Source: an uncultured Lachnospiraceae bacterium (GTDB lineage: Bacteria > Bacillota > Clostridia > Lachnospirales > Lachnospiraceae). Taken from it: 64,000 nt of DNA. The stretch lies in the NCBI GenBank assembly GCA_900319245.1, contig ONNQ01000010.1, positions 1 through 64,000 on the forward strand. Reading direction: 5' to 3'. Under the pieces are notes generated by a model, which was given only the letters and a program-made list of their open reading frames with translations, made no database searches and was not told the origin of the DNA. Position numbers and translations under genes: made by a program. Of the stretch, positions 10,054-16,807 are shown one piece after another; the stretch's first letter is position 1; every line of letters starts with the position of its first letter.

Positions 10054-10079
10054 CGGGTGCCTGCGGGCACCCGTTTTTT
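10054..10079 (+). terminator. Terminator of the ABC exporter operon
   Basis: The stem CGGGTGCC/GGCACCCG (10054-10061 with 10066-10073) with a TGCG loop is followed by six T residues. It lies about 40 bp after the permease stop. Confidence 0.92.
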
Positions 10080-10084
10080 GTGTC

Positions 10085-10807
10085 TATATTTAACATTGTT
10101 TGAAGCCTTCCTCATGGTCGACTTCTCCTGCGCGCTGAAGCTGTCCATGCCGCTCTCTGTGCTCTCCGCAATCCGGGAGGCCGGCGAATGCGATATCACC
10201 GTCAAGGGCGGAAAGTTTCTGGAAGCGGCCGCACAGGCGGATACTATTGTATTTGACAAGACCGGTACGCTGACCCACGCCACGCCCACAGTTGTGGACA
10301 TCGTGACCTTTGCAGGCGCCGATGAGACGGAATGCCTGCGACTCGCGGCATGTCTGGAGGAGCACTATCCGCACTCCATCGCCAATGCCGTCGTGGAAGA
10401 AGCCGCCCGCAGGGGACTCGAGCACGACGAGATGCACTCCAAGGTGCAGTACGTCGTGGCGCACGGCATTTCCAGCTCCGTCAATGGCAAAAAAGCGCTG
10501 ATCGGAAGCCGACGTCGGAATTGCAATCAGCGACGGGGCTGCCATCGCAAGAGAGGTGGCGGATATCACGATCTCGTCGGAGAGCCTCTACCGTCTGCTC
10601 GTTCTGCGTAAGCTCAGCACGCAGCTGATGCGCCGCATCCGTTTCCAGTACCGGTTCATCATCTCCTTCAATGCGCTGCTGATCGCACTCGGGGTGCTCG
10701 GCATTCTGCCGCCCGCGTCGTCAGCCCTGCTCCACAACGGATCCACGATCCTGACAGGGCTTAAGAGCATGACGGATCTTCTTGACGAGAAAGAGAAAGA
10801 AGAATAA
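10085..10807 (+). pseudogene. Remnant of a heavy-metal P1B-type ATPase
   Basis: Two pieces of a metal-transporting P-type ATPase are joined in different frames. Piece one (about 10085-10510) holds the last part of the transmembrane core (FLMVDFSCALKLSMPL), the phosphorylation motif DKTGTLT, and an HP-type nucleotide-domain motif (HYPHSIANAV). Piece two (about 10505-10807) resumes at DVGIAISDGAAIAREVADI and includes the last two helices and normal C-terminus (LLHNGSTILTGLKSMTDLLD). The beginning of the gene and roughly 150-200 residues of the P domain, including the GDGxND hinge, are missing, and the junction shifts frame. It cannot make an active pump. Confidence 0.85.
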
Positions 10808-11769: not shown

Positions 11770-13248
11770 ATGTTGAAGGATTTTGTCAAGGCGATCGAGC
11801 CTGAAGAGGAGGAGCTGAGGAAAGAACTTAAGGAGGCGCAGGCCAAGCTGGCTGGTTTTCAGACACAGATCAAAGAGGCCAAGCTCCCTGTCATGGTCAT
11901 TTTTGAAGGTTGGGGCGCAGCCGGCAAGGGCAGCGTCATCGGGCGCGTGATCAAGAGCATTGATCCCCGTTTCTTCCGGGTCAAAACAATGGCGGCCCCC
12001 ACAGCGGAAGAACTCCGCTACCCCTTCCTGCACAGATATCTACTGGAGATTCCGGAAGCCGGCAAGTTTGCGTTTTTTGACACCTATTGGATGAACGAAG
12101 TGACCACACAGCTGATGGAGGGCGAGCTGGACGAGCACAATTACAAGCAGCGTGTACGCAGCATCAACACCGCCGAGCGCTCTCTCACCGACAACGGCTA
12201 TCTGGTGATGAAATTCTTCTTCCACATCAGCAAGAAGGAGCAGAAAAAGCGTCTCGACGCGCTGATGGCCGACAAGAACACGCGCTGGAGAGTCAATCGG
12301 GACGACCTGCACGAGAACAAGCACTACAAAGATTATCTGGATGTCTATGAGCAGTACCTGTCTGACACGGACCGCTCCGCGGCGCCCTGGTACATCATCG
12401 ACGCCAGCAACAAGAAATGGGCGGAGCTGCAGGTTCTGCGCTTCCTCAACCAGGGGATTGAAACCGCGCTCAAGAATCACGCCCTCGCGGCGCCCATCCG
12501 CCAGAACATTTTCCCGCTGAACCCGATTCAGAAGCTCGCCGACGTCGACCTCTCGGACAAAACATTGACCAAAGAGGAATATGACAGCGAACTGGACCGC
12601 CTGCAGAAAGAACTCAGCAGCCTGCACAACGAGCTCTACCGCAAGAGAATTCCGGTCATCATCGCTTACGAGGGATGGGACGCAGCCGGCAAGGGCGGCA
12701 ATATCAAGCGCATTACCAGCGCGCTGGATCCCCGCGGCTACGAAGTGCACCCGATTGCGAGCCCCGAGCCCCACGAGAAAGCAAGACATTTCCTGTGGCG
12801 GTTCTGGAACCGGCTTCCCAAGGACGGCCACATCGCGATCTTCGACCGCACCTGGTACGGACGTGTCATGGTGGAGAGACTGGAAGGCTTCTGCAGCGAG
12901 AACGACTGGCAGCGCGCCTACAACGAAATGAATGAGTTTGAGAAAGAGCTCGCCGACTGGGGCGCTGTCGTGATCAAGTTCTGGGTCCACATCGACAACC
13001 AGACGCAGCTCGAGCGCTTCACAGACCGCCAGAACACCCCCGAGAAACAGTGGAAGATCACCGAGGAGGACTGGAGAAACCGCGAGAAATGGGATGTGTA
13101 CGAGGCGGCTATCGACGAGATGCTGCAGAAAACCAACACAACCTACGCCCCCTGGTACATCCTGGAGTCCAACGACAAGAAATACGCGCGCATTAAGGCG
13201 CTGCGGATCGTCGTGGATGCGCTGAAGAAGGCGTGTAAGGAGAAATAA
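11770..13248 (+). CDS. pap: Polyphosphate:AMP phosphotransferase, two-domain PPK2 family
   Basis: Transfers phosphate from polyphosphate to a nucleotide, typically AMP to ADP for two-domain members. I start it at the ATG at 11770, which has AGGAGG 7 bp upstream; an earlier ATG at 11680 lacks this. Counting from 11770 there are 492 residues in two PPK2 units. The second has the full active-site set (Walker A EGWDAAGKGG, Walker B IAIFDRTWYGRV). The first keeps the P-loop (EGWGAAGKGS) but its Walker B is FAFFDTYWMNEV, so it has probably lost catalysis, the usual pattern in this class. A terminator follows at once, so it is monocistronic. Confidence 0.92.
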   Translation: MLKDFVKAIEPEEEELRKELKEAQAKLAGFQTQIKEAKLPVMVIFEGWGAAGKGSVIGRVIKSIDPRFFRVKTMAAPTAEELRYPFLHRYLLEIPEAGKFAFFDTYWMNEVTTQLMEGELDEHNYKQRVRSINTAERSLTDNGYLVMKFFFHISKKEQKKRLDALMADKNTRWRVNRDDLHENKHYKDYLDVYEQYLSDTDRSAAPWYIIDASNKKWAELQVLRFLNQGIETALKNHALAAPIRQNIFPLNPIQKLADVDLSDKTLTKEEYDSELDRLQKELSSLHNELYRKRIPVIIAYEGWDAAGKGGNIKRITSALDPRGYEVHPIASPEPHEKARHFLWRFWNRLPKDGHIAIFDRTWYGRVMVERLEGFCSENDWQRAYNEMNEFEKELADWGAVVIKFWVHIDNQTQLERFTDRQNTPEKQWKITEEDWRNREKWDVYEAAIDEMLQKTNTTYAPWYILESNDKKYARIKALRIVVDALKKACKEK

Positions 13249-13254
13249 GTGATT

Positions 13255-13289
13255 AAGCGCAGCGCCGCGAGGCGCTGCGCTTGGTTTTT
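13255..13289 (+). terminator. Terminator of the PPK2 gene
   Basis: A perfect 12-bp stem (13255-13266 with 13271-13282, AAGCGCAGCGCC) and GCGA loop are followed two bases later by TTTTT. Confidence 0.92.
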
Positions 13290-13301
13290 GTGGGGGAGGT
13301 T

Positions 13302-13741
13302 GCATTCCCGGTTTCATAAACCTTGCTCCACTTGCCTTGCACAGGCCCTTCGTCTGTTCCTAGCCCTGCGGTGCATCTCATCTTAGCGATTCTTCTTGTG
13401 AGAGATGCATTTCCAGCCGAACGACTCGATTTGTGTGCATCTTCTTTTTGGGGATTTTCCAGCTATAGGATGCAGATTTTTCAAGTGGGCAGAGGGATTT
13501 GGATTTCTTCTAAATTAGGATGCATTTTTCATAAAAAGATGCATCTCTTAAATCTGGTCCTACAAATATAGGATGCATCTCGGCCGGCTTTAGTAGTAAG
13601 TCGGCCGAAAGTGCATCCTACTTTTCTTGTTTTCCTTATTGGAGATGCGTCATTTGCATCCTATTTTCTCATTTTCTTGATTTCCTCTGCCCTCTTTCAA
13701 AATCCGCATCTCATATCGCGAGTATTTCCATTTGATGATGC
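13302..13741. repeat. GCATC/GATGC motif array, copy 1 of a ~400-bp direct repeat
   Basis: This gene-free stretch contains fourteen GCATC or GATGC motifs in about 370 bp, where roughly one is expected by chance. Several form inverted pairs whose starts lie 31-32 bp apart (13373/13404, 13437/13469, 13613/13644, 13706/13737). Some pairs can fold into hairpins, the best being AGGATGCA (13570) with TGCATCCT (13612) plus an inner CGGCCG/CGGCCG. The block recurs at 14809-15206 in the same orientation, with roughly 15-20 substitutions and a few small indels, but with the motifs kept. Confidence 0.85.
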
Positions 13742-13755
13742 ACTCGCTCAACACT

Positions 13756-14598
13756 TCACAGGCAGTACCTCTTCACCATCTGCTTCACGACGTTAAGATT
13801 GATCGGCATATCATTTGTCTCCATTGTAATGATCAGATTGTCGCCGAGGCAGTAGCCTGCAAGTTGATAGCAATTAATTCGATGCACCGCATCCCTCGCA
13901 TAGGAATCACTATCCATCCTCCCACAATGCTCCCATATAATTTCCTTGCGCAAGCGCACATTCAAAATAATGAAATCCGGGTGTACAATCCCCAGCCCCT
14001 TAATATTGATTGGGTACTCATACCTGTAGGGAATTCCGCAGCGCTTCAGATAATTTGCTATTAGTACTTCTGATTTTGACCGTACAATCTCGCCACGTTC
14101 TGTGACGAATTCCTCTTTTTTGCCCTCCACGCGGCTAGGCTCATATTCCACACTGAGCCAACGGGCCACAAATTGAGCATCCGTTTCAATGATTGGACGC
14201 ACAAGCTCTTTCCAGTTCTCGCTCATCAGACCAAACTGATCTTCTGCCGTGTTCAATGGATACTGACGGCCGAGCCTCTCCAAAACCCTGAGCTCCTCTT
14301 CCGCCGCTTTCAAAACTCTCTTGTCATATTCTTTCTGCGCAAGCCGTTCAATTCTGTCTCTTTCACTCTTCTTCAGATAGATTCCGTTTCTGTCATGGAT
14401 GTCCATCCGATGATAGTACTGTGTCCTCGACTTGCTCTTGCTGATCCGAAGCGACCCGCGAGGAGCTATTTTAATTGCTTCCTGCTTGCATTTGATCAGT
14501 CCCCTCAAATATTCAATTCGCTCATCATAGCCATCTCTGGAAATTATGCTAGTGTGTGAATTGTAATGCTTAAGACTTGTTCTTTTGATGTGATTCAT
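13756..14598 (-). CDS. PD-(D/E)XK-like nuclease protein of unknown function
   Basis: A 280-residue protein with a GGGAGG ribosome site 8 bp before its ATG. Residues 1-150 are charged and helical, with a likely coiled coil at 75-110. Residues 165-280 show the pattern of a PD-(D/E)XK nuclease fold: SKSEVLIANYL with Glu177, YRYEYP with Glu194, HPDFIIL with Asp208, and EIIWEHCG with Glu223-His224, followed by RINCYQLAGYCLGDNLIIT. I do not recognise a named family. It stands alone between two direct copies of a GCATC/GATGC motif array and is less GC-rich than its neighbours. That suggests a mobile or accessory cassette; the nuclease assignment is inference from motifs. Confidence 0.6.
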   Translation of the reverse strand: MNHIKRTSLKHYNSHTSIISRDGYDERIEYLRGLIKCKQEAIKIAPRGSLRISKSKSRTQYYHRMDIHDRNGIYLKKSERDRIERLAQKEYDKRVLKAAEEELRVLERLGRQYPLNTAEDQFGLMSENWKELVRPIIETDAQFVARWLSVEYEPSRVEGKKEEFVTERGEIVRSKSEVLIANYLKRCGIPYRYEYPINIKGLGIVHPDFIILNVRLRKEIIWEHCGRMDSDSYARDAVHRINCYQLAGYCLGDNLIITMETNDMPINLNVVKQMVKRYCL

Positions 14599-14735
14599 GA
14601 TGTCTGCCTCCCTTAGATGTGAATTGAATTATGCCTTAAGAAATGTAATAAAAAAGAGATTCTAAATTGAATCTCCAAGAAAATTGTAGGAAGTATGCGG
14701 GGTAAAAGTCAAAGTGTTTATTACACCGAAGAATT

Positions 14736-15206
14736 ACCTTGCTCTAGCCATTCGTCTGTTCCTAGCCCTGCGGTGCATCTTATTTGTGTAATTCTCCTAG
14801 CTTGAGATGCATTTCCGGTTTCATAAACCTTGCTCCACTTGCCTTGCACAGGCCCTTCGTCTTGCGGTGCATCTCATCTTAGCGATTCTTCTTGTGAGAG
14901 ATGCATTTCCAGCCGAACGACTCGATTTGTGTGCATCTTCTTTTTGAGGATTTTCCTGCTATAGGATGCAGATTTTTCAAGTGGGCAGAGGGATTTGGAT
15001 TTCTTCTGAATTAGGATGCATTTTTCGAAAATGGATGCATCTCTTAAAATTGATTCCACAAATATAGGATGCATCTCGGCCGGCTTTAGTAGTAAGTCGG
15101 TCGAAAATGCATCCTACTTTTCTTGTTTTCCTTATTGGAGATGCGTCATTTGCATCCTATTTTCTCATTTTCTTGATTTCCTCTGCCCTCTTCAAAAAGT
15201 TGCATC
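14736..15206. repeat. GCATC/GATGC motif array, copy 2 of the direct repeat
   Basis: Positions 14809-15206 repeat 13302-13710 in the same orientation. A short internal deletion sits near 14861, and an extra upstream unit (14736-14808) repeats the TTCCTAGCCCTGCGGTGCATC segment. Motif pairs again fall 31-32 bp apart: 14775/14806, 14869/14900, 14933/14965 and 15109/15140. Differences between the copies avoid the motifs, and the CGGCCG stem changes to a G-T wobble pair rather than breaking. The remaining gap (14599-14735 and 15207-15361) shows nothing I can name. Confidence 0.85.
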
Positions 15207-15361
15207 TTAAATCAAGAATTGTTCCATTTTTCTCTTCTTAGCCTAGATGACTGCCTAGATAGCTGCGGAGATGGCTTCGGCAAGCCCTCAAAGAGGCGCG
15301 AAAGAAGAGCGTCAAAAGCCGCTCAGCCTAGACGCCTGCAGCAAGCCCTGAAAAAATCCAA

Positions 15362-15739
15362 TCACCAAATCAGCACTAATGCCCCAACAATCACCGCAAA
15401 AGCAAGCACATAGATCATTCCTATGCCAAGGGATGCCTTCAGCATGCCAAGGACATACATGCGTCGCTCGCTGCTGTCCATTTCGGGGGCTGGAATTTCG
15501 TGCCGGCTGCGGCCGCCACCATAGCGTCCGCCCGCGCCGCCGTAGCCACTCGAACCGTAGCCACCGGCACCATAACCTCCGGCGCCGCCGCGTCCGAACG
15601 CCCCAAAGGCCCCGAACAGCCCGCCATTTTCGGCATTATCTTTGTGGATTCCTGACCACCGTCCTACTATAGAGACATCCGGAAGGTCGCTCATATCCGC
15701 GATGGTTCTCCCGTCATCGTCCTCATATTCTCGTCTCAT
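15362..15739 (-). CDS. Small membrane protein with Gly/Tyr-rich linker
   Basis: A 125-residue protein of unknown function. An acidic N-terminus (residues 1-40) is followed by a Gly/Tyr/Ala-rich tract (about 42-78, repeats of GGYG and GAGGY) and a single C-terminal membrane helix (about 100-123). It starts 25 bp after the last gene of the peptide transporter operon on the same strand, so it may be cotranscribed. The low-complexity linker looks like repeat expansion. No motif gives a function. Confidence 0.55.
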   Translation of the reverse strand: MRREYEDDDGRTIADMSDLPDVSIVGRWSGIHKDNAENGGLFGAFGAFGRGGAGGYGAGGYGSSGYGGAGGRYGGGRSRHEIPAPEMDSSERRMYVLGMLKASLGIGMIYVLAFAVIVGALVLIW

Positions 15740-15763
15740 GGCCGGTTTCCTCCCAAAATAATA

Positions 15764-16807
15764 TCAATCATACAAATGGCACACCACAAAATGTCCGGGC
15801 TCGATCTCTTTCTGCTGGGGCTCCACGGTCTTGCATTTTTCTGTGCAGTATTTGCAGCGTGTGTGGAACTTGCAACCGGTGGGCGGATTGGCCGGGGAAG
15901 GAATGGAGCCTTCCAGGACAATCCTCTTCATGCCCGCATTGGGATCCGGGATCGGGATCGCGGAGAAGAGTGCCTTTGTGTAGGGGTGGAGCGGGTTCTT
16001 GAAAATGTCTTTCTTGGGGCCATACTCCACCAGGTTGCCGAGGTACATGACGCCTACGGAATCGGAAATGTGCTCAACAACGGACAGGTCGTGAGAAATG
16101 AAGAGATAACTCAGATTTCTCTGCTCCTGCAGTTTCTTGAGCAGGTTGATGATCTGCGCCTGGATGGAAACGTCCAGGGCGGATACAGGCTCGTCGCAGA
16201 CGACGAATTCCGGGTTCAGGGCAAGTGCACGCGCGATACAGATTCTCTGCCTCTGACCGCCGGAGAACTCGTGCGGGTAACGGGACTTGTGGAAAGGCTG
16301 CAGGCCGCAGTCATCCATGACTTTGTCCACGTAATCGTTGTATTCCGCGCGGGATACCAGGCCGTGCTCGCGGACCGCTTCTCCGATGATCTCGCCGACG
16401 GGAAGTCGAGGTGAGAGGGATGAGAAAGGATCCTGGAAGATGATCTGCATCTTGGTGCGCAGAGAGCGCAGCTCGCTGTGGGACAGATCGTACACTTCCT
16501 GCCCGTTAAAGAGAACCTGGCCGGCGGTCTTCTCTCCCGCAAGACGCAGGATTGTGCGGCCGGTCGTTGTTTTGCCGCATCCGGATTCTCCAACGAGGCC
16601 CATCGTGGTGCCGCGCTTAAGGTTAAATGTGACGCCGTCGACTGCCTTGACGTTTCCGACAACGCGGTTCATCATGCCGCCCTTGATGGGGAAATACTTC
16701 TTGAGGCCGTTGACCATCAAAATATACTGCGGGTCGTAGGTCACAGGGGTGATCGGGGTCCCGTTCGCCGCATTGCTTCCGTTCGCGATATTGCTTCCGT
16801 TCGCCAT
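15764..16807 (-). CDS. oppF: Oligopeptide/dipeptide ABC transporter ATPase, OppF-type
   Basis: One of the two ATPases that power peptide import. At 347 residues it has Walker A GESGCGKTT, signature FSGGQRQR, Walker B FVVCDEPVSALD, and the C-terminal OppD/F extension with PPTGCKFHTRCKYCTEKC, a Cys cluster that in related transporters can hold iron-sulfur or zinc. The first 20 residues contain an unusual NGSNIANGSNAANG repeat. Its start overlaps the OppD stop by one base. The order binding protein, permease, permease, ATPase, ATPase is canonical for this transporter class. Confidence 0.93.
   Translation of the reverse strand: MANGSNIANGSNAANGTPITPVTYDPQYILMVNGLKKYFPIKGGMMNRVVGNVKAVDGVTFNLKRGTTMGLVGESGCGKTTTGRTILRLAGEKTAGQVLFNGQEVYDLSHSELRSLRTKMQIIFQDPFSSLSPRLPVGEIIGEAVREHGLVSRAEYNDYVDKVMDDCGLQPFHKSRYPHEFSGGQRQRICIARALALNPEFVVCDEPVSALDVSIQAQIINLLKKLQEQRNLSYLFISHDLSVVEHISDSVGVMYLGNLVEYGPKKDIFKNPLHPYTKALFSAIPIPDPNAGMKRIVLEGSIPSPANPPTGCKFHTRCKYCTEKCKTVEPQQKEIEPGHFVVCHLYD

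Follow-up and report, generated by a model that had tools for sequence, protein, structure and literature searches.

Nucleases beside helix-phased inverted-motif arrays in Clostridia: a candidate self-addressed unit

The described systems closest to the locus treated here each place an enzyme gene beside short repeated DNA. In two accounts (PMC2817692, PMC3733652), the REP/BIME repeats and their RAYT (TnpA-REP) enzymes appear as extragenic inverted palindromic units in dispersed copies, with the enzyme gene beside cognate repeats that co-vary with it. TIGR-Tas (PMC12045711) has a compact array upstream and/or downstream of a nuclease gene and motifs particular to each locus. Our locus shares these outward features. 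It lies in contig ONNQ01000010.1 of an uncultured Lachnospiraceae bacterium (assembly GCA_900319245.1), within a stretch of 64,000 nucleotides that we call the window, and consists of a gene for a 280-residue nuclease flanked by two arrays of inverted TGCATC/GATGCA pairs.

The differences are considerable. RAYTs are HUH/Y1 transposases, whereas the enzyme here is PD-(D/E)XK-like; five nucleases of its family scanned against Pfam, and a search of NCBIfam, gave no family at the cut-off (best Pfam E=0.068). REP copies exceed 100 per genome, against 0 to 16 or 19 exact motif pairs here. The motif here is kept without stem covariation, complementarity within a unit being about that between units; the spacing is locked to helical turns; and what we take to be the DNA-reading end of the enzyme is exchanged together with the array, as a cassette, at a fixed locus. 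TIGR arrays are built of 8–12-nt repeats with spacers of about 9 nt, are transcribed into guides and go with a Nop domain. Here the arms of a unit stand about 25–37 bp apart and neighbouring units 51–192 bp apart, in steps of 4 to 18 helical turns, the five nucleases scanned gave no Nop match in Pfam, and two arrays compared with phages gave no sign of guides.

Three further systems bear comparison. PADLOC's candidate defence protein PDC-S68 has a homologous C-terminal nuclease domain; its models exceed 1200 positions, whereas the proteins here are mostly 260–290 residues long, with a different N terminus and an array. The C boxes of restriction-modification systems are alike in that a nuclease gene is controlled through short inverted upstream sites, as we propose here. 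There, one or two sites are served by a separate small regulator; in our proposal the nuclease would be its own regulator and occupy an array of many sites, and there is no modification methyltransferase among ten neighbouring genes. Phage integrases bind multiple, phased, short arm-type sites through an arm-binding domain of beta-beta-beta-alpha form. The N-terminal segment of our nuclease has, by eye, a similar look; Pfam scans of the five nucleases found no recombinase domain.

We think that these loci probably represent an undescribed class of Clostridia unit, in which a nuclease would be self-addressed to a private phased array, its DNA-reading head and the array would form an exchangeable cassette, and a cell would hold several distinct pairs together with solo arrays acting in trans as decoys, anchors or targets. 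The system is apparently new: our searches of the open literature showed no matching description, most subscription papers lying outside them. For the single unit, the reading that we favour, with a probability of roughly 0.55, is that of a PD-(D/E)XK-type nuclease which would read a half-site with its N-terminal domain, accompanied by a cognate helix-phased array that would be both its own operator and a platform on which it is held.

Nuclease relatives and their phased arrays

Relatives of the window protein are widespread. A family profile built from eight array-adjacent proteins of the type found in g34, our label for one sister genus in the same family as the window genus, finds members in 28 of 29 g34 genomes at E<=1e-10, with up to 11 copies each. 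It also finds them in 35 of 62 genomes of the window genus. In a sample of the class, a limit of E<=1e-20 gives 23 of 391 genomes, belonging to 13 of 223 genera. We examined 88 nuclease loci (L171–L230, L271–L298), which are not all of the profile matches. By a strict test, at least three exact 6-mer units, an array is present at 39 of the 88, against 1 of 61 control loci (Fisher 3e-10); the controls came from motif searches, hence are non-random, and the single positive one (L149) bears the TGCATC motif of the solo arrays described below. Thirty-eight of the 39 arrays are upstream of the gene, five of these on both sides, and one is downstream only. Six loci have no usable upstream stretch. 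Among the remaining 82, with one mismatch allowed, at least three units were found upstream at 56, against 0 of 164 base shuffles, and at least four units at 46, against 0 of 164 shuffles and 2 of 251 real control segments. These counts show that nuclease relatives in Clostridia usually have what looks like their own phased array upstream.

The array word differs from one nuclease to the next. An unbiased search for inverted words found, beside other paralogues, arrays of TACAGT, TACGGA, TACGGG, TACGTG, TACGTC, CCGATA, ATCCAT, GCACCG, ACGGAC and more, about 20 distinct words spread over five families of the class. GCATC is the site of the type IIS enzyme SfaNI; we dropped that connection, since other nucleases of the family carry unrelated motifs. 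Arrays stand on both sides of the nuclease at the window and at four other loci, and in one case (L276) 22 ACGGAC units, about 53 bp apart, lie on both sides of the gene and look by eye as if the two sides were mutually inverted. In five close pairs, all of them relatives rather than the window gene, dN/dS is 0.06–0.21, which shows purifying selection on those pairs. The first-pass annotation of the window had proposed that nuclease and arrays make one functional or mobile unit; the association just described, and the joint replacement described in the next section, bear out the unit, and mobility is only partly shown.

The spacing of the units follows the DNA helix. Distances between neighbouring units in g34 are 43, 52, 53, 61–65, 73, 94, 95, 105, 127 and 158 bp, near multiples of 10.5 bp, and 59 such distances from 21 array clusters give a best period of 10.5 with R=0.924, some of the arrays being orthologous and so partly non-independent. 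Taking one locus for each of 24 classes defined by motif and lineage, we obtain 54 distances with R=0.822 at a period of 10.5 bp, a value reached by 0 of 5000 sets of random integers in the range 50–200. This is the pattern expected if proteins occupy sites along one face of the DNA duplex. The two arms of a unit show no sign of changing in concert. In 46 distinct g34 units the six inner bases have 3.48 matches within units and 3.52 between them (p=0.65), and in 26 arrays of at least four units the differences are small and run in both directions. The half-sites themselves barely change: six orthologous array pairs differ at 1 of 240 half-site positions, against 93 of 1723 elsewhere, while a seventh (TACAGT) is weaker, at 6 of 42 and 52 of 273. 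Only one member of each pair was used to place the half-sites, a source of mild bias in these figures. Since the arms do not change together, each half-site seems to be kept for its own sake. The window annotation had offered binding sites for a dimer or a family of small hairpins. One would not expect linkers between RNA hairpins to step by helical turns; the 10.5-bp steps, taken with the lack of covariation, favour protein sites on double-stranded DNA and disfavour hairpins.

A probable head-and-array cassette downstream of guaA

The flank that follows guaA, which we identify by eye as the GMP synthase gene, is present in 26 of the 29 g34 genomes, and in 20 of these the sequence continues for at least 1 kb beyond it. 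Twelve of the 20 sites have a nuclease within 1.5 kb, with arrays of TGCATC (8), TACAGT (2), TACGGA (1) or TACGGG (1), those of G248 and G266 being seen only with mismatches or by eye. The others are in various states: a decayed nuclease with an array (G424), a nuclease match of only 14 residues at E=0.001 (G472), a TACGGA array with no nuclease (G179), and five sites with neither, in two of which (G429, G219) the unit lies just past an extra gene. In G457 guaA is followed by its terminator and a radical SAM gene, apparently an empty site.

Comparison of two of these alleles is instructive. Between G248 and G327 the flank and the C-terminal part of the nuclease are 83–98% identical; identity falls to 56–59% over 200 bp, then to about 40% across the remaining N-terminal end and the entire array, and returns to 87–96% in guaA. 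Other pairs behave in the same way in their proteins: L175 and L184 are 96% identical at the C terminus and 42% over residues 30–75, and L171, L173 and L174 against L187 give 95–96% and 36%. At guaA, an orthologous locus, these alignments show that the N-terminal 70–120 or so residues and the array have been replaced together, with the nuclease domain and the flanks kept.

The same relation holds beyond single pairs. Among 24 g34 loci, residues 30–75 are 72.6% identical in pairs that share a motif (66 pairs) and 39.2% in pairs that do not (210); for the C terminus the figures are 83.8% and 73.4%. N-terminal identity thus tracks the motif class, so the motif follows the N-terminal segment, which contains a short class-specific strand (STVRG, SRCRG, SNSNG, SKSHG and others). 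We considered whether L172 and L178, 94.8% alike, were one unit at two loci and rejected this: both are downstream of guaA, with the extra gene intervening in G429.

The site also accepts other passengers. By eye, G279 and G467 (L246, L263) carry there a small helix-turn-helix gene with a DUF1016-like gene, and a helix-turn-helix gene with an acetyltransferase-like gene. Such varied cargo is as expected for an integration hotspot. The open reading frames around one guaA locus include, again by eye, a DNA-repair-type methyltransferase-like gene about 3.4 kb away and no modification enzyme.

The window unit and arrays without nucleases

The features of the window unit are these, by position and strand.

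13301..13745, no strand: array A, on the 3' side of the nuclease gene; TGCATC-N26/27-GATGCA units at 13372, 13436 and 13540, with extra half-sites
13488..13494, plus strand: GGCAGAG box of array A, inside a 50-bp GATGCA-to-GATGCA module
13685..13691, plus strand: CTCTGCC box, its inverted partner in array A
13756..14598, minus strand: gene for the 280-residue nuclease, with a candidate N-terminal DNA-binding region and a C-terminal PD-(D/E)XK-like domain
13765..14109, minus strand: PD-(D/E)XK-like catalytic domain, residues 164–278, placed by its match to the C-terminal end of PADLOC PDC-S68 (E=1.1e-24) and by alignment
14314..14469, minus strand: candidate DNA-reading segment, about residues 44–95, of beta-beta-beta-alpha look, aligned to the motif-following segment of the sister genus
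14683..14712, minus strand: promoter-like TTGACT-18-TACAAT between array B and the gene; weak, with 3 such sites against 3.9 expected in shuffles
14734..15230, no strand: array B, on the 5' side of the nuclease gene; units at 14774, 14868, 14932 and 15036, with extra half-sites
14984..14990, plus strand: GGCAGAG box of array B
15181..15187, plus strand: CTCTGCC box, its inverted partner in array B

Nine aligned sequences share an invariant E177, P207-D208 and E223-H224 and lack the lysine at its usual position, a pattern compatible with a PD-(D/E)XK-like site whose last position is atypical. In the family at large the similarity to the end of PDC-S68 covers the C-terminal 115–130 residues (E as low as 4.5e-31), and a related domain is found at the ends of AAA/helicase proteins on plasmids. 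Phage relatives match mainly this C-terminal part; one phage record of 4.2 kb covers 83% of the protein at 32% identity.

The first-pass annotation rested on GCATC/GATGC motifs, about 14 to each array; we count 14 in array A (13373–13741) and 15 in array B (14775–15206). The eight inverted pairs that it listed are all in place, one in each array terminating in GATGCG. The core is better written TGCATC, with the starts of a pair 32 or 33 bp apart and single half-sites in addition. Chance clustering is ruled out: the whole window has 219 GCATC/GATGC motifs against 214 expected, the enrichment being confined to the two arrays, and both arrays contain a two-pair pattern, TGCATC-N26/27-GATGCA-N25/26-TGCATC-N27-RWKSM, that none of 100 shuffles produced. 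The arrays are direct repeats, as had been noticed, with 300 bp ungapped at 95% identity and a leading block of 55 bp at 98%; array B has one unit more (14774–14811). The observation that shared motifs had stayed unchanged while the copies diverged also holds, with 0 of 63 motif positions altered over the 300 bp against 14 of 237 others (Fisher p=0.047), and the reported change of a CGGCCG stem to a wobble pair is there as CGGTCG. The stretch 13302–15230 has no match among phages or plasmids, and the exact array pattern none in viral contigs. We rejected an origin in phages or plasmids on these DNA searches and because the phage and plasmid relatives of the protein match mainly in the C-terminal domain.

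Arrays of this kind are not confined to the neighbourhood of a nuclease, and part of what the annotation had named as refuting its inference does occur. In the window's own genome there are 19 exact TGCATC pairs, at least two of them probably due to chance. Diverged relatives of the arrays, in pieces 70–77% identical, lie at C47 and C49, and partial or single-pair arrays at C73, C62, C54 and C35, all six without a directly adjoining nuclease. The examined stretches of C47, C49, C73, C54 and C62 contain no nuclease relative; C35 has a paralogue of 28% identity about 3.6 kb from its array. The two window arrays, C47 and C49 keep the same order and distances: a pair, 64 bp, a pair, 104 bp, a pair and a mirrored close pair. 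Each carries a GGCAGAGG box inside a 50-bp module that runs from GATGCA to GATGCA, except that in C47 the second half-site reads GATGCG; in three of them the mirror-image module contains an exact CTCTGCC box.

Further afield, a scan of a collection of 84,980 species returned seven stretches with the array pattern. One is the window array shared with a genus mate (G030, a Lachnospiraceae metagenome-assembled genome, UBA2734), two are arrays in the Lachnospiraceae metagenome-assembled genome RGIG6995, with units like TGCATCGGGAT...ATCCCGATGCA every 62–63 bp, and four appear to be chance occurrences or repeats of another kind, two of them on reading the sequence and two on motif positions alone. 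Neither G030 nor RGIG6995 has a nuclease in the array-bearing stretches examined. By eye, the RGIG6995 arrays (L087, L092; sheep rumen) adjoin a ClpB-like gene in one case and lie between the 3' ends of pilT- and rpoC-like genes in the other. The three-motif pattern occurs in 2 of 62 genomes of the window genus and in 9 of 392 of an order sample, namely our own genome, five of g34 and three others whose matched strings resemble, by eye, unrelated repeats or coding sequence.

Within g34 there are 21 array clusters in 20 stretches, with recurring spacing series at different loci and in both orientations. Five clusters, and two further loci, directly adjoin a relative of the window protein (31–34% identity); the other 16 do not. 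Exact TGCATC pairs number 0 to 16 in each of the 29 genomes. The association thus runs one way: a nuclease usually comes with an array, whereas an array can stand without a nuclease, since arrays with none directly adjoining exist in our own genome, G030, RGIG6995 and g34. The solo arrays examined sit between genes, occur also in genomes without a nuclease that scores like the cognate class, and are themselves conserved, three orthologous pairs differing at 1 of 136 half-site positions and 49 of 775 elsewhere. Genomes with a TGCATC-type nuclease have more TGCATC pairs (mean 8.2, n=11, against 3.4, n=18; p=0.003), a difference that we leave unused, as the linked array alone would account for about that much. 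Some g34 arrays (L151, L154, L155, L165, L167) have a second box, TAGAGNNGATT, in their linkers, 6 times in 5,986 bp of array against 11 times in 244,314 bp of whole loci. At L110 and L111 (G248:C16, G327:C1) the same array lies beside the end of what looks by eye like a pyruvate phosphate dikinase gene; in L110 a recombinase-like gene has been inserted and only the last codons of the dikinase end remain, and in L111 the end is intact.

Some of the nuclease-linked arrays have a leader of their own. A promoter (TTGACA, about 17 bp, TATATT) with a TGGCA...CGCCA box precedes the array at 9 of 22 loci inspected, in five motif classes, and in g34 a conserved promoter stands about 125–150 bp ahead of nuclease-linked arrays. 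The promoter pattern was found at 5 of 5 nuclease-linked and 0 of 15 solo arrays tested (Fisher 6e-5; solo cluster L170 excluded). Leader box, array and nuclease form a block of about 1.2 kb that is 80% identical between L176 and L181, ungapped past the first 50 bp, with unrelated flanks; the unit can therefore occupy different places. Its boundaries are seen in this one comparison.

Readings of the unit

In the mechanism that we propose, the N-terminal domain would read a half-site and a dimer of the nuclease would grip one unit, whose arms are three turns apart. Dimers would align along one face of the DNA across the array. In coating it they would prevent or reduce transcription of the gene that encodes them, the g34 promoter being ahead of the array. 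The array would then be operator, storage platform and ownership tag at once, keeping a potentially dangerous nuclease at a low level. Regulation would be lost if a DNA-reading head were parted from its matching array, and this, we propose, would be why head and array change as one cassette. As to purpose, the likeliest answer, and the least certain part of our account, is a compact selfish or competitive nuclease element whose specificity is diversified by cassette exchange through homologous recombination. We lean this way because the units are solitary where examined, multi-copy, diversified at one locus and sometimes decayed.

A number of observations weigh against this reading. The window N-terminal segment is 14–29% identical to the g34 TGCATC class and 21–38% to other classes; the window protein is no nearer to the class that shares its motif, so a simple reading code fails across genera. 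TGCATC-type arrays occur in g34 genomes without a nuclease scoring in the TGCATC class (G454, and G460, which is 81% complete), and 26 of the 82 upstream regions have fewer than three units. The 50-bp module of the window family is 4.8 turns long, off the 10.5-bp rule, and poor fits to the phasing are seen also in L206 (a 54-bp tandem) and L214 (28-bp repeats). The leader is shared by only the nine of 22 loci mentioned, window and sister genus place the promoter differently with respect to the array, and shuffled sequence yields promoter-like sites at least as often. The search matches of two copies used in the swap comparisons, L180 (G248) and L187 (G453), each have one in-frame TAA, and a profile search of PDB gave two matches, the best at E=0.14, neither of them convincing.

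Of the other explanations, the one that survives best, though we consider it unlikely, is a REP/RAYT-like family of mobile repeats. The nuclease would be a transposase-like mobiliser and the arrays mobile DNA, autonomous with a nuclease and non-autonomous when solo. Nuclease-free arrays at several intergenic sites, in recurring layouts and both orientations, would follow naturally, as would the L176/L181 block and the two-sided arrays at the window and four other loci; enzyme and repeat co-vary here as RAYTs and REPs do in PMC2817692. The copies are few and old (the 70–77% pieces at C47 and C49), the leader is in 0 of the 15 solo arrays tested, and the guaA variants resemble homologous allele replacement rather than transposition. 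No terminal repeats or target duplications were noticed, in material not systematically searched for them. RAYTs act on single-stranded hairpins, whereas the phasing suggests double-stranded DNA.

Somewhat less likely again is a restriction-like role in defence, the nuclease cutting incoming DNA, the arrays marking self or holding enzyme in reserve and the exchangeable specificity opening new targets. Allelic variation of specificity at one locus is what restriction systems display, there are up to 11 copies per genome, and the C-terminal domain matches PDC-S68 and the plasmid AAA/helicase ends. Those PADLOC matches, however, span the nuclease domain only, and the ten neighbours inspected at five loci include no DNA-modification methyltransferase or other defence gene; they are commonplace genes or ones of unknown kind, among them flagellin, competence protein, acetyltransferase and MazG-like genes.

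We give a small chance to an RNA system, in which the array would be transcribed as a hairpin leader or as guide RNAs for the nuclease, in the manner of TIGR-Tas or CRISPR. The promoter upstream of g34 nuclease-linked arrays means that the array would be transcribed, the units are palindromic with variable inner segments, and the weak Pfam matches (E 0.07–0.23) include two HEPN models (E=0.22, 0.15). All of these are below the cut-off, however, the arms lack covariation, and the spacing is quantised in steps of 10.5 bp across 4 to 18 turns. No known Rfam family reached its gathering score in 12500–16000, where three matches all fell short, and two arrays compared with phages for guide targets gave one 23-bp match at E=5 and none, nothing convincing. 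Least likely is that these are ordinary dispersed repeats or host regulator sites next to nucleases by coincidence; arrays without nucleases do exist, intergenic where examined, but this reading already appears contradicted by the joint replacement of N terminus and array and by an association that holds at 39 of 88 loci against 1 of 61, spanning five families of the class with about 20 motif words.

If the self-addressed reading is right, Clostridia hold a natural and evolving set of orthogonal protein–DNA address systems. Spacing locked to 10.5 bp over 24 motif-by-lineage classes would be genomic evidence for a protein lattice on DNA, and the units may account for some of the unassigned intergenic repeats in Clostridia. 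The natural swap alleles of head and array provide ready cognate and non-cognate combinations, with which specificity, autoregulation and what the solo arrays are for can all be tested directly.

In the window itself the unit sits between a polyphosphate kinase 2-like gene (ending at 13248; by eye) and a small glycine-rich gene (15362–15739). Farther off, an open reading frame at 10057–10611 has the phosphorylation motif of P-type ATPases (DKTGT), is far below the length of a full pump and looks by eye like a fragment.

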